From positions 62,001 to 126,000 of the forward strand of contig NZ_JAOTIF010000015.1 in assembly GCF_025628885.1 (NCBI RefSeq): a DNA stretch of 64,000 bases, in the 5' to 3' direction. The translations under genes were made by a program, and so were the position numbers. Below the pieces are notes generated by a model, which saw only the letters and a list, made by a program, of their open reading frames with translations, was not told where the DNA came from and searched no databases. The DNA is from Paraflavisolibacter caeni (GTDB lineage: Bacteria > Bacteroidota > Bacteroidia > Chitinophagales > Chitinophagaceae). This document shows positions 36,410 to 52,202 of the stretch, piece by piece. Each line of letters starts with the position of its first letter. The first letter of the stretch is position 1.

Positions 36410-37246
36410 CTACTTCAAACCCGCAATCAGCTTTTCATTTAAGCTTATGTAATCATTATTGTTCTGCTGTTTGGCCAGTTCCAAAGATTTCATAGCGGCA
36501 GTTTTGGCTTCTACTTTACGGCCAAGCTTTGCCAGTGCATTGGCTCTTTGGTAATGTATCCAGAAGGCATTAGGGTTTTGTTCTATAGCTTTATCAAACC
36601 ATGCAAGCGCCTGTTTCAGGTCTTTGCCCGATTCCATATAATACATGGCAGACTGAAAATAGGGGCGATTGTCTTTATTCATAGCATTATTGATCTGGGC
36701 CATCACTTTTGAATCAACATCCATTGTAATGGGGACCTGGACAGCTGTCTTATCCCAAATAATGCGCAGGTCTGTACTGGAAGGCATCACATTGACAAAC
36801 TGCATGGTAAATGTCTCTGTCTGCATAGGTGCATTCATGGTCTTAACCTTAAAACGGGCTACGTCATCACTTTCCTTATATCCATCGATACCCCAGTTAT
36901 TAATGCCTTTGTTGAGAATTACTTCCCACTCGTTAGGATTAGGAATGGTATATAAAACATAGTCCCCAGCTTTTACAGGAACGCCACCAACACTTACATC
37001 ATCTGCAAACTTAATACGTGTTGCCGCATTAGCACCCGTGCGCCATAACTTCCCATAAGGTACCAGGTCTCCAAATATGGTTCGGCCGCGCATATTGGGG
37101 CGGGAATAAGTTAACTCAATCGTAGAAATCCCAAAATCTTGTTTGATAGTTTGAGTAGGGCTTGGAGCTGGAATTTTGATTTGTTGTGCATCTGCAATAA
37201 TCATAAGGCAAACTGCAGCAAGACAGAAAAGGGTTCTCTTCAACAT
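36410..37246 (-). CDS. DUF2911 protein with C-terminal TPR
   Basis: 278 residues. Signal peptide LFCLAAVCLMIIADAQ, then a DUF2911 beta domain (TIELTYSRPNMRGRTIFGDLVPYGKLWRTGANAATRIKF is characteristic, here split to keep to short quotes: SRPNMRGRTIFG and KLWRTGANAAT), followed by a short tetratricopeptide segment (ALAWFDKAIEQNPNAFWIHY). DUF2911 proteins are exported and of unknown function. ATG start; the upstream region is the 11-bp repeat array. Confidence 0.87.
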   Translation of the reverse strand: MLKRTLFCLAAVCLMIIADAQQIKIPAPSPTQTIKQDFGISTIELTYSRPNMRGRTIFGDLVPYGKLWRTGANAATRIKFADDVSVGGVPVKAGDYVLYTIPNPNEWEVILNKGINNWGIDGYKESDDVARFKVKTMNAPMQTETFTMQFVNVMPSSTDLRIIWDKTAVQVPITMDVDSKVMAQINNAMNKDNRPYFQSAMYYMESGKDLKQALAWFDKAIEQNPNAFWIHYQRANALAKLGRKVEAKTAAMKSLELAKQQNNNDYISLNEKLIAGLK

Positions 37247-37390
37247 AAAAAAATTATTTTGGTAGCAAATCTAATAGGAATATCCGAACCTGATTGATCC
37301 AAATCAGTATAGCACCTTTCTCCTTCATTTCGCATCTTTCCATTCCCCCAACCCCAGTAATATTATACTTTTTGATGCCAATTTTACATT
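37247..37390. other. Non-coding start of the repeat-bearing gap
   Basis: AT- and C-rich DNA upstream of the DUF2911 gene with no gene or clear motif. I see no promoter match in it beyond a generic AT stretch. Confidence 0.4.
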
Positions 37391-37665
37391 TCTACCCCCG
37401 ATCTATAGAGAAATTATTGTACCCTTATAGTAATCTTATAGAAAACTTACAGTAAAGTTATAGTAAACTTATAGTAGAGTTATAGTAAACATCCTCTGTA
37501 CATCCTCCCTAGATACTCCATATATAGTCCGTATCTACTCCGTACCTAAGGCATATCTACCATATACTTACGGCCTACTATCCCCCTTATCTAACCGACC
37601 ATACCTTCAGGATAGATCAAGTATAGCTGAAGCACACCTGAAGCATACCTGAAGCATACTTCAAG
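37391..37665. repeat. Array of 25 consecutive 11-bp units, TA-phased
   Basis: Read in steps of 11 from 37391, TA falls at unit positions 3-4 in 20 of 25 units. Three successive families are visible: CTTATAGTAAA-like (37424-37489, six units), TCTACTCCGTA-like (about 37490-37577), and CATACCTGAAG-like (37600-37665). There is no spacing between units and no shift in register over 275 bp. Frequent stops in every frame rule out a protein repeat. Units differ from each other, so it is an old, diverged minisatellite or a phased DNA element. Confidence 0.85.
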
Positions 37666-37675
37666 CACGAAACAG

Positions 37676-37744
37676 ATTTTTACTACTCCAACTCCAAACT
37701 TCAAACTCCAAACTCATCCCTCATCTATCATCTCTCATCAATTC
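37676..37744 (+). other. G-free tract upstream of the DUF423 gene
   Basis: 69 bases with no G on the plus strand, including an ACTCCAAACTTCAAACTCCA-type imperfect repeat. It immediately precedes the promoter region of the next gene. Confidence 0.6.
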
Positions 37745-37768
37745 GTATTTTTATCGCCTTAAAATGCA

Positions 37769-38164
37769 ATGGTAATGGCAAAAATTTATATGATTCTAGG
37801 CACAGTGTTAGGTGGATTGGCAGTGATTTTAGGTGCTTTTGGAGCACATGGCCTTAAACAACTCGTACCGCCGGAAACTGTTTCCTCTTATCAGACGGGT
37901 GTGCAATACCAGATGTATCATGCATTTGCACTCCTGTTAATTGGCATTCTGGCCGAACGTACCGCAAATGCCTCATTCCTGAATTACGCCGGTATGTCCT
38001 TTGTTACAGGTGTCGTTTTGTTTTCTGGTTCCCTGTACTTGATGGCATCCTTAAAAGCTGTGAATAAAGTAGGCATCTCTGGGATGGGAATTATAACACC
38101 TATCGGCGGACTTTTCTTTATCCTTGGCTGGTGCTTGTTTCTAATAGCATTAGCGAAAAGATAA
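37769..38164 (+). CDS. DUF423 membrane protein
   Basis: 131 residues, four membrane helices. LGGLAVILGAFGAHGLK, YQTGVQYQMYHAFALLLIG, FVTGVVLFSGSLYLMA and GMGIITPIGGLFFILGW match the DUF423 family (YwdK-like), small inner membrane proteins of unknown function. Start ATG at 37769; a second ATG two codons later is also possible. Confidence 0.9.
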   Translation: MVMAKIYMILGTVLGGLAVILGAFGAHGLKQLVPPETVSSYQTGVQYQMYHAFALLLIGILAERTANASFLNYAGMSFVTGVVLFSGSLYLMASLKAVNKVGISGMGIITPIGGLFFILGWCLFLIALAKR

Positions 38165-38237
38165 AAGCTTTTCTACCTTTCTAATATATTACAGCTTTTT
38201 GCCTTGACTTCAAAATCAAACTTCAAAATCCAAATTA

Positions 38238-38245
38238 TATCTTTG
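38238..38245 (+). promoter_or_regulatory. -7 promoter element (TATCTTTG) of ftsK, near-leaderless
   Basis: Perfect TAnnTTTG ending 5 bases before the ftsK ATG at 38251, so the transcript should begin within a few bases of the start codon. Confidence 0.55.
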
Positions 38246-38250
38246 TCGAT

Positions 38251-40956
38251 ATGGCTAACAAGCTGAAAAAACCTGTACCACCTAAGGTTGAGGAGAAGGA
38301 AGTGAAAAAGGCAAAACCGGATCCGGAAAAATTGAAACAGGACCGGGAAGAGAAGGTTGATTTCAAACAACTGGCAAAAGATGAACGTACCTGGAAAATC
38401 ATGGGTACTGTGTCCCTTTTGCTATCAGTTTTCCTTTTTATTGCATTTATATCTTATCTGTTTACCTGGAAAGAAGACCAGGATAAAGTACTCAACAATG
38501 AAGCATCCTTTTTGTGGGATGATGAAATCAAAGTAAGCAATCTCTTGGGCCGCCTGGGAGCCTATATATCGCATTTCTTTATTTATAGAGGTTTTGGCAT
38601 TGCTTCTTTATTATTTTGTTCCTTCTTCTTCATCACAGGAATAAACCTGTTAACGAATCAAAAAATCTTTTCTGTTAAAAGAAACCTGCGTTATATTACG
38701 TTTGGCCTTCTGATTACTTCTGTTTCGTTCTCTTTTCTATTCTCCAGCGCAGCTTTCCCGTTCGGCGGTAGAGTGGGCGACATGATTAGTTCCTGGCTAA
38801 ATAGTTTTCTGGGTATTGCAGGAACTGCAGCTTTATTATTGGTGGTCGGTCTTAGTTATATCATCTGGCAATTCAATCCAACTTTTAGATTGCCTGAAAA
38901 ACCAATTAAACCAGTTAAAGTGGAGGAAGAAGTTGATGATGAGGTGTTAACAGTTGATCAAGATTATTCGAAGGCTCAGCCCGAAATGGCTCCAGTTTCT
39001 GATGCTAAACTTTTTGTAGAAGAAGATGTGAAACCTGTGGTGCCAGAAAAGGGAAATATTCTGAAGGGTGATGGGGAAATGATCGTAAACATTCCTGTGC
39101 AGGAAACTCCTAAGAATGTTTTTGAACTGGTGGAAAAGAACATACCTGAAGAAGAAAGGTTGATTATCAATCAAACGGTTGAAGAACCTGAACCTCTTAT
39201 AGAGGAACAGGAACTTGATGAAGTAGAACCCTTAACTTATAATGAAACTGAAAGGACTCATTTTAGCAGCATGGAATCTGGTAATGAATCAGAACATGAT
39301 GATGCGATTCCTACTCTTGTTCTGCAGACACCGGTTGTTCATGTGGAAAGGCCAAGATTTCCTTCTGCTGCTACTGATTTAAAACTTGAGATCAATAGGG
39401 TAGAAGATAAACCCATCGATGAAGAGCGGGAAAAGGATTACAGCGACCTTCCTCCATACGAACCTACACTGGATTTGAGAGATTATAAGTATCCATCGCT
39501 TGATATCCTCGAATCTCACGGTAGTGAAAAGATTGTTCAGGATGCTTCTGAGTTGGAAATGCACAAAAACCAGATCATCACTACCCTGAAAAACTACGAC
39601 ATTACGATTCAGAGAATAAGCGCCACAGTTGGTCCAACTGTAACTCTATATGAAATCGTACCCGCAGCAGGTGTTCGTATCTCACGTATCAAAAATCTGG
39701 AAGATGATATCGCACTGAGCCTTGCAGCTTTAGGTATCCGTATTATTGCACCAATCCCTGGTAAGGGCACGATCGGTATTGAGGTGCCGAATGTGAAAAA
39801 GACCGTGGTAAGCATGCGTACGCTCTTATCATCTGAAAAATTCCAGCACAATACTTTTAGTCTGCCCATCGCCATTGGTAAAAAGATTGACAATGACAAC
39901 TTCATAGTCGATTTGGCAGCCATGCCGCACTTGCTGATGGCCGGTGCAACTGGTCAGGGTAAATCGGTTGGTTTGAACGCGATCTTGGTTTCTTTACTGT
40001 ATAAAAAGCACCCTTCCCAGTTAAAGCTGGTTCTGATCGATCCCAAGAAAGTGGAACTTAGCATTTACCGGCATATAGAGAAGCACTTCTTAGCCAAACT
40101 CCCCGGTGAAGAAGAAGCGATCATTACCGATACGAAAAAAGTGATCAATACACTCAATGCCCTGTGTATTGAGATGGATAACCGGTACGATCTTCTGAAA
40201 GAAGCTGGTGCAAGGAACATCAAAGAATACAACGATAAGTTTATTAAGCGCAGACTCAATCCACAAAAGGGGCATCAGTACTTACCTTTTATAGTATTGG
40301 TAGTCGACGAGTTTGCCGACTTGATCATGACCGCAGGTAAGGAGGTGGAAATGCCGATAGCGCGTCTGGCTCAGCTGGCTCGTGCGGTTGGTATTCACCT
40401 GATCATTGCTACCCAGCGCCCATCGGTAAACATTATTACAGGTACCATCAAGGCCAACTTCCCTGCACGTATTGCCTTTAAGGTGTCATCTAAGATCGAC
40501 TCCCGTACCATCTTGGATGCAGGAGGTGCTGAGCAGTTGATAGGTAAAGGTGATATGCTGATTTCCTACAACGGAGAGATTGTCCGGTTGCAGTGTGCCT
40601 TTGTAGATACTCCGGAAGTTGAAGAAGTGGTGGATAGCATTGCAAGACAACGTGGCTATTCCCAGGCATTTATGCTTCCCGAATATGTTGATGAAAAAGA
40701 ACTGGAAAGTAAAGATTTTGACGTTGCCGACCGTGATCCGCTTTTTGAAGAAGCGGCCCGCTTGATTGTACAAAATCAGGTAGGATCTACTTCCCTGATC
40801 CAGCGCAGAATGAAGCTTGGGTATAACCGGGCTGGCCGACTTATGGACCAGTTGGAAGCCGCCGGCGTAGTGGGACCAAACCTTGGCAGTAAGGCCAGAG
40901 AGGTAATGATAAAAACGGAAGCTGAATTGTTAGAATATTTAGAAAATATGCCGTAA
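38251..40956 (+). CDS. ftsK: DNA translocase FtsK
   Basis: 901 residues. Four N-terminal membrane helices (about residues 50-210), an acidic Pro/Glu-rich linker (~215-420), then the motor: an FtsK alpha region (IKNLEDDIALSLAALGIRI), Walker A GATGQGKS (near residue 565), Walker B IVLVVDEFADL, and a C-terminal winged-helix gamma domain (SLIQRRMKLGYNRAGRLMDQLE) that reads KOPS-like sites. It moves chromosome DNA and coordinates dimer resolution at the division septum. ATG start. A LolA-like gene follows in the same direction. Confidence 0.96.
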   Translation: MANKLKKPVPPKVEEKEVKKAKPDPEKLKQDREEKVDFKQLAKDERTWKIMGTVSLLLSVFLFIAFISYLFTWKEDQDKVLNNEASFLWDDEIKVSNLLGRLGAYISHFFIYRGFGIASLLFCSFFFITGINLLTNQKIFSVKRNLRYITFGLLITSVSFSFLFSSAAFPFGGRVGDMISSWLNSFLGIAGTAALLLVVGLSYIIWQFNPTFRLPEKPIKPVKVEEEVDDEVLTVDQDYSKAQPEMAPVSDAKLFVEEDVKPVVPEKGNILKGDGEMIVNIPVQETPKNVFELVEKNIPEEERLIINQTVEEPEPLIEEQELDEVEPLTYNETERTHFSSMESGNESEHDDAIPTLVLQTPVVHVERPRFPSAATDLKLEINRVEDKPIDEEREKDYSDLPPYEPTLDLRDYKYPSLDILESHGSEKIVQDASELEMHKNQIITTLKNYDITIQRISATVGPTVTLYEIVPAAGVRISRIKNLEDDIALSLAALGIRIIAPIPGKGTIGIEVPNVKKTVVSMRTLLSSEKFQHNTFSLPIAIGKKIDNDNFIVDLAAMPHLLMAGATGQGKSVGLNAILVSLLYKKHPSQLKLVLIDPKKVELSIYRHIEKHFLAKLPGEEEAIITDTKKVINTLNALCIEMDNRYDLLKEAGARNIKEYNDKFIKRRLNPQKGHQYLPFIVLVVDEFADLIMTAGKEVEMPIARLAQLARAVGIHLIIATQRPSVNIITGTIKANFPARIAFKVSSKIDSRTILDAGGAEQLIGKGDMLISYNGEIVRLQCAFVDTPEVEEVVDSIARQRGYSQAFMLPEYVDEKELESKDFDVADRDPLFEEAARLIVQNQVGSTSLIQRRMKLGYNRAGRLMDQLEAAGVVGPNLGSKAREVMIKTEAELLEYLENMP

Positions 40957-52020: not shown

Positions 52021-52047
52021 ATTAACAATCCTTTAGTAATTCTTCAT

Positions 52048-52067
52048 AGTACTAATTAATTAGTACT
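52048..52067. promoter_or_regulatory. 20-nt perfect palindrome upstream of the M48 gene
   Basis: AGTACTAATTAATTAGTACT, symmetric over its full length. It lies about 42 bp upstream of the -7 element of the M48 peptidase gene, a position that suits a dimeric regulator. Confidence 0.45.
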
Positions 52068-52108
52068 CATTAACTATTTTCCTTTCACTTTTCACCACTC
52101 CCAATTCT

Positions 52109-52116
52109 TATTTTTG
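52109..52116 (+). promoter_or_regulatory. -7 promoter element (TATTTTTG) of the M48 peptidase gene
   Basis: Fits TAnnTTTG; 86 nt before the ATG, downstream of a 52-base G-free tract (52064-52115). Confidence 0.45.
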
Positions 52117-52202
52117 CATTTCCTTTCTTAAACCATTTTAAGGTAGATAGGTCATTGTAATATTTGGTATAACTATTGGAATTATTATAAAAAAGCAAGA
52201 AA

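Follow-up and report, generated by a model that had tools for sequence, protein, structure and literature searches.

Satellite-like DNA is generally considered scarce in bacteria. The short tandemly repeated repetitive (STRR) sequences of heterocystous cyanobacteria are tandem repeats dispersed between genes, as are the 11-bp arrays analysed in this work, and they are heptamers with near-identical units, unlike the degenerate 11-bp units found here. The available sections of MacGregor 2015 (PMC4679880) describe TAACTGA and other heptamers from the Beggiatoaceae, the Cyanobacteria and five Bacteroidetes, as direct repeats that are mostly intergenic and strain-specific, some species having numerous sets in one genome. 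The same sections report that length differences between the heptamer repeats of two Cyanothece strains are mostly 7-nt increments. For the TAACTGA heptamers of Beggiatoaceae, it has been proposed that they tune how the gene downstream is transcribed or translated. The ~11-bp nucleotide periodicity of bacteria is, in those parts of PMC4132750 and PMC7537859 drawn upon here, a genome-wide bias in nucleotide frequency. According to the available text of PMC9426499, ParR of plasmid R1 binds the 11-bp direct repeats of parC, a minimum of two repeats being required.

The array considered in this work lies at 37391-37665 of the window, which is the whole 64,000-nucleotide stretch of DNA that was analysed. 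It is probably one copy of a dispersed, intergenic and modular family of minisatellite-like repeats with an 11-bp unit, which grows locally and is copied between loci.

Structure and extent of the array

The initial annotation described 25 eleven-base units over 275 bp, and these are recovered without insertion or deletion when the sequence is cut at every eleventh base from 37391. TA occupies unit positions 3-4, in one register, in 20 of the 25 units, compared with a best-phase maximum of 12 among the 2000 dinucleotide-preserving shuffles of 37391-37665 that served as the control for periodicity. Self-identity at lag 11 lies above the shuffles, as the periodicity claim needed it to (0.633, against a mean of 0.271, sd of 0.028 and maximum of 0.371), and stands at 0.561 and 0.483 for lags 22 and 33, respectively. 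The printed units also bear out the reported grading from CTTATAGTAAA through TCTACTCCGTA to CATACCTGAAG. Tandem Repeats Finder (TRF) returned the expected period of 11, but split the array into pieces, rather than reporting about 25 copies in one. The units are contiguous and free of spacers, in agreement with the view that this is not a CRISPR array, and Pfam confirmed that the neighbours are genes encoding DUF2911 and DUF423, which are divergent around the array. The features of the locus are as follows:

36410..37246, minus strand: gene encoding DUF2911 plus TPR (Pfam PF11138)
37391..37423, plus strand: left edge, three in-register units (TCTACCCCCGA TCTATAGAGAA ATTATTGTACC) shared by few other copies
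37424..37489, plus strand: module A, six CTTATAGTAAA-type units
37424-37490: TRF piece, period 11, 6.1 copies
37490..37599, plus strand: module B, ten TCTACTCCGTA-type units, differing among copies
37505-37541, 37514-37548 and 37627-37668: further TRF pieces of the 11-bp array
37600..37665, plus strand: module C, six CATACCTGAAG-type units
37617-37667: TRF piece, period 22
37666..37680, plus strand: conserved end of module C, CACGAAACAGATTTT
37685..37740 (TRF 37685-37739), plus strand: low-complexity tail of 7-bp period, with ACTCCAA units followed by CTCATCT units
37769..38164, plus strand: DUF423 protein gene (Pfam PF04241)
38251-40956: ftsK, after the DUF423 gene (Pfam PF01580)

The repeated element is wider than the 275 bp first described. 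Among the stretches of the same genome that were examined, coverage by other copies increases at ~37416-37424, where many copies start and module A has its left boundary, and reaches zero by ~37761; the left edge of this profile is steep, the right edge gradual, and depth is zero within both flanking genes. Only ~6-9 other copies extend over 37391..37423. As copy depth reaches zero only by ~37761, the 7-bp-period tail belongs with the repeated element, and further repeats of the tail's sequence occur elsewhere in the genome. When scored separately, a 7-bp array at 37665-37761 adjoins the 11-bp array, and the window holds a second 7-bp-period array at 52028-52123.

The phasing of TA could signify curved or easily unwound DNA, in which helically phased TA steps or A-tracts would produce a bend or sensitivity to supercoiling. 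The 20 phased units of 25 favour such an explanation, as does the period of ~11 bp, which the available part of PMC4132750 treats as general in bacteria and as often associated with negative supercoiling. However, the array would make 26.2 turns at the 10.5 bp per turn of relaxed DNA, on which a strict period of 11.0 bp falls ~1.2 turns out of phase along the array; the core periodic motif set is not involved in DNA bending, in the portion of PMC7537859 drawn upon; and TA is without marked conservation between copies, as detailed below. The probability of this explanation is correspondingly slim, and the idea that TA is read on one face of the DNA, through curvature or by a nucleoid protein, is a prediction that finds little support in the comparisons made here.

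Copies across the genome and their variation

BLAST of 37381-37700 identified at least 18 other places in the same genome, with 79-95% identity and E <= 2.4e-41, giving 19 places including the query among the 19 candidates scored of the 116 from a first look. The doubled CTTATAGTAAA unit has 107 matches with up to three mismatches, several per array, and the end-module pattern CTGAAGCACGAAACAGATTTT has 25 at the same tolerance, while neither pattern has any match when reversed. The genome-wide search of 11-mer families suggested by the initial annotation thus identifies the array as one among many copies, rather than an isolated one. Module order was read in 33 stretches containing matching sites: the family is non-coding, and the ordered modules recur at many intergenic sites, with full copies running from A (CTTATAGTAAA type) through B (TCTACTCCGTA type) and C (CATACCTGAAG type) to the end CACGAAACAGATTTT. 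Further arrays join C-like units to additional families of 11-bp period, GTACTTAAGCC and ATCCTTCGACC being examples. Arrays of the ATCCTTCGACC type, forming a second 11-bp family, were seen at C1:8716-8898, C1:273458-273705 and C12:299832-300029; next to each lies a similar stretch that lacks periodicity, around TTTATGAGCATTTGCTCAATTCAGATCGAAGC, perhaps another module end.

A census of 864 kb (C1:1-400000, C12:1-400000 and the window), in contiguous stretches that nevertheless come from contigs already known to carry copies, found 26 period-11 arrays above threshold. One is coding and the other 25, non-coding, sit at 22 intergenic loci; a coding origin was rejected on this evidence. Non-coding arrays at periods 7 to 13 number 23, 6, 0, 1, 25, 3 and 0, hence two periods, 7 and 11, stand out, and a 7-bp array is also present at ten of the 22 loci. 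By extrapolation to 7.01 Mb, there would be ~200 period-11 arrays.

The positions of these loci bear on whether the arrays are cis-regulatory or 5' untranslated elements that tune the transcription or translation of a downstream gene. With genes called by a simple codon-score caller, the 22 loci comprise 10 divergent, 11 tandem and one convergent gene pair, where random placement predicts 5.7, 11.7 and 4.6, respectively; the divergent excess and the convergent scarcity, each with a one-sided P of ~0.03, count in favour of a cis-regulatory element, and the scarcity hints at a regulatory or positional bias. Against this, module A has no clear orientation relative to the gene on its 3' side: it lies on the same strand in 12 cases and on the opposite strand in eight, one of 21 having no such gene, and a fixed strand was accordingly discarded. 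Distances to genes are also broadly spread, and RNA folding is only slightly better than in control intergenic DNA, with a mean z of -0.76 over 25 arrays and -0.31 in 40 control segments (two values, both from 7-bp arrays, were lost to zero variance). A cis-regulatory role for the family is therefore unlikely.

A structured RNA was also considered and rejected, as folding only slightly exceeds that of controls, yields no consistent structure, and Rfam has no match in the array. The fold z of the window array is -0.39 and -2.06 on its two strands, and three of the 25 arrays fall below -3 on one strand. The single Rfam match in 36900-38300 at E values up to 5 is to mir-316, outside the array at 38098-38185, and scores 28.5 bits where the gathering threshold is 80.

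The differences between copies are informative about how the arrays change. Start-to-end distance is a multiple of 11 in nine of 13 full copies, with five distinct lengths from 209 to 253, and the register is broken in the other four, by 4, 5, 5 and 8 bp. Alignment of 12 of the 13 (L066 being excluded) gives a mean identity of 88% and 139 pairwise gaps, of which 86 are of 11 and nine of 22, together 95, the remainder being 20 of 4, 13 of 15, nine of 5 and two of 1; these count pairs, not independent events. As gaps are chiefly of 11 or 22, length changes mostly preserve the phase. Divergence per unit position ranges from 0.069 to 0.179 in these 12 copies, and the two TA positions, at 0.104 and 0.113, are so near the mean of 0.126 for the other nine that TA is at most slightly protected.

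Little variation is seen in the 66 bp of module A: among 18 in-register copies, 58 columns are the same in every copy and pairs differ on average by 0.027. Recent spread, conversion and purifying selection would each account for this. In a four-gamete test of 21 copies, 13 of 21 informative site pairs show all four combinations, a count inflated by three copies that are out of register through an extra or missing unit. With the 18 in-register copies alone, seven of ten pairs do so, involving three separate places (columns 19, 46 and 70-72), and all four combinations are seen for each pairing of these places. Such reshuffled variants imply either exchange between copies, by recombination or gene conversion, or mutations that recurred, which could also produce the four combinations.

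Within arrays, the similarity of units depends on their separation. Across 59 arrays of this genome, which include loci chosen through their match to the array family, in-phase identity falls from 0.553 to 0.504 and 0.441 at successive unit distances, and then to 0.346 at 4-7 units, 0.297 at 8-14 and 0.300 at 15-25, against a background of ~0.26. This decay is a trace of local duplication, whereas one uniform binding motif would not decay, and it sustains the original suggestion of local tandem duplication followed by divergence. A weak TA register persists at long range in the same arrays, at 0.18 in phase compared with 0.087 for units 15-25 apart. Selection for 11-bp spacing could lie behind this weak register, the register shared by modules A, B and C, and the phase-keeping length changes.

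By analogy with ParR on parC, a protein might assemble on the arrays with an 11-bp step, such as a ribbon-helix-helix or other nucleoid or partition protein, in which case they would be scattered anchoring or regulatory sites. Such a binding platform would account for the exact 11-bp period across 25 units, the preponderance of length changes in multiples of 11, the one register kept by unlike modules, and the retention of the period in a relative, G015, where the sequence has largely changed. It sits less well with TA being conserved at most slightly better than other positions between copies, with a unit similarity that decays towards background while no single common motif is held, with the register broken in four full copies, and with the several unlike unit families in many arrays. 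We regard this reading, the chief alternative to the repeat-family explanation, as unlikely. The more far-reaching version, in which ~200 intergenic 11-bp-phased platforms are selected for spacing, not sequence, and read by a protein with one subunit per 11 bp, is unlikely too; if true, the platforms would amount to a chromosomal equivalent of the parC centromere, or to a bacterial repeat that organises chromatin.

The favoured explanation remains a modular repeat family that grows locally and is copied between loci, and would involve three processes. Firstly, slippage or unequal exchange within an array would add and remove units, the outcome of which is observed. Secondly, modules may be spread and homogenised by copying between sites, through ectopic gene conversion or a mobility route, the observed outcome being copies that are dispersed and reshuffled. 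Thirdly, and more tentatively, most arrays may need no sequence-specific function, persisting as they sit between genes. It is also possible that the arrays affect the DNA of long intergenic regions, for example through spacing or insulation. As to external origins, plasmids and phages were rejected after 37416-37740 had no match at E <= 0.01 in 72,556 plasmid records or in 50,697 phage records, with the BLAST low-complexity filter on in both searches.

Relatives and the rearranged locus

BLAST of 37381-37700 had no match at E <= 0.001 in 37 relatives (17 of the same genus), in a search over 38 genomes that scored only 19 of a larger number of candidates in each of three relatives (G021, G022 and G023). 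The locus itself is equally bare in relatives, as no 11-bp array was detected in the 500 bp upstream of DUF423 in any of 16 relatives, or in the 500 bp upstream of DUF2911 in any of 13 readable relatives (of 14, the L193 locus being truncated). The initial annotation had proposed periodic sequence at this locus in relatives as a test; no 11-bp array is present there, but non-coding 11-bp arrays occur elsewhere in four of the 20 relatives sampled (G015, G007, G019 and G022), with between 3 kb and 760 kb covered in each, and 3 to 140 kb in those where none was seen. Hence the array is neither chance nor a single-site accident. One of these, in the DUF423 region of G007 (L108 2798-2993), is clean and built of GCCGTACGAGT/AATACGAATGA-type units, with a combined lag-11/22 identity of 0.85. 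A wide species range for module A was rejected, as a 22-mer of the module had no exact match in genome_contigs, a contig collection from which this genome is itself possibly absent.

In G015, non-coding 11-bp arrays number 13 over 380 kb and 24 over 760 kb, and within those 760 kb the window array has no DNA-level match at E <= 1. The units of these arrays are mostly unlike those of the genome studied here, with the CTCCGTA units of module B common to both. Relative to 20 control samples of other intergenic DNA, the arrays of the two genomes share 16 k-mers at k=13 (control mean 4.4, maximum 9), 10 at k=14 (mean 2.6, maximum 13), six at k=15 (mean 0.5, maximum 2) and three at k=16 (none in controls). 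This is modest evidence that their B-type units share ancestry.

No 11-bp arrays were found in 140 kb of G003 or 120 kb of G012, which contain three and ten period-7 arrays, respectively. Likewise, 80 named FtsK-centred loci across the family (644 kb) have no period-11 array and 20 period-7 arrays, at 13 of the loci. As 11-bp arrays occur in few relatives and at none of these 80 loci, richness in them looks lineage-specific, judging by the sequences sampled. By eye, 7-bp-period intergenic sequences that look self-complementary, for instance with TTAGCTG runs facing CAGCTAA, were noticed in G012 (L126 10912-18870, many within one 10-kb stretch), G014 (L145 15690), G005 (L144 653) and G003 (L118 5488). 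Also by eye, such sequences precede the shikimate kinase gene at the same place in three relatives, though the letters differ among them, resembling hairpins of which the place and period are kept while the sequence changes.

The flanking genes raise the separate question of chromosome rearrangement, in which the arrays would be recombination sites and the window copy would mark a breakpoint. The gene order in G015 is shikimate kinase-DUF423-ftsK, with a TonB-like gene before DUF2911, and in the genome studied here the shikimate kinase and TonB-like genes face each other on contig C34. This arrangement is consistent with the window junction being an inversion breakpoint relative to G015, or a translocation given the draft contigs, and that resemblance is what speaks for rearrangement. 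The suggested breakpoints would have separated shikimate kinase from DUF423, and the TonB-like gene from DUF2911; the two junctions in the genome studied here are 37247-37768 of the window and G000:C34:38367-38434. However, no array is present at the second junction, where the lag-11 maximum is 0.32. Synteny is also generally poor: in a small comparison of 57 reciprocal best hits, none of four array gaps with a mapped flank was conserved, compared with four of 28 among the remaining gaps that reach 200 bp or more. These counts give no sign of enrichment, and no array gap among the stretches examined had both flanks conserved. Rearrangement as the role of the arrays is hence very improbable, and we make no claim that they cause it.

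The significance of the dispersed modular family lies in one lineage holding a large set of intergenic arrays, in which a unit length is preferred while the sequence turns over between species. It poses the testable question of whether the 11-bp step is selected, through the helical turn or a protein filament, or is a by-product of repeat formation, for which the 7-bp arrays, more widespread in the family, offer a natural comparison.

Comparison with described repeats

No description of 11-bp arrays in this bacterial group was found in the open-licence literature searched. Similarity to the genome-wide ~11-bp periodicity, as characterised in the available parts of its literature, lies in a period near one helical turn; the arrays differ from it in being discrete tandem structures with an exact register and dispersed homologous copies. 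With the parC of R1, as far as the accessible text of PMC9426499 describes it, the arrays have in common 11-bp direct repeats, which in parC are bound by a repeat-reading protein. Unlike that plasmid site near parM, they are many, dispersed and degenerate, and the adjacent parM/parR genes of a parC-type centromere are absent at the window locus, the one checked, where the neighbours are DUF2911, DUF423 and ftsK. R1 ParR demonstrates that reading of 11-bp repeats by a protein exists, and no result on the arrays demands it.

The closest resemblance is to the dispersed short tandem repeats. The arrays have a single short unit length, occupy many intergenic loci and change in length by whole units, and their unit is 11 bp, not the 7 bp of the STRR/heptamer type. 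As with the heptamers in the sections of PMC4679880 consulted, they are intergenic, present at many loci, mixed in unit type and altered by whole units. They differ in their 11-bp unit, in the high degeneracy and grading of these units, and in the recurrence of modules A-B-C as a block, and they do not have the start-codon-proximal, same-strand placement that those sections attribute to the heptamers of the Guaymas 'Maribeggiatoa'. Hence the 11-bp family matches the heptamer repeats in kind, and is set apart as a variant by its unit length, degeneracy and modular order.
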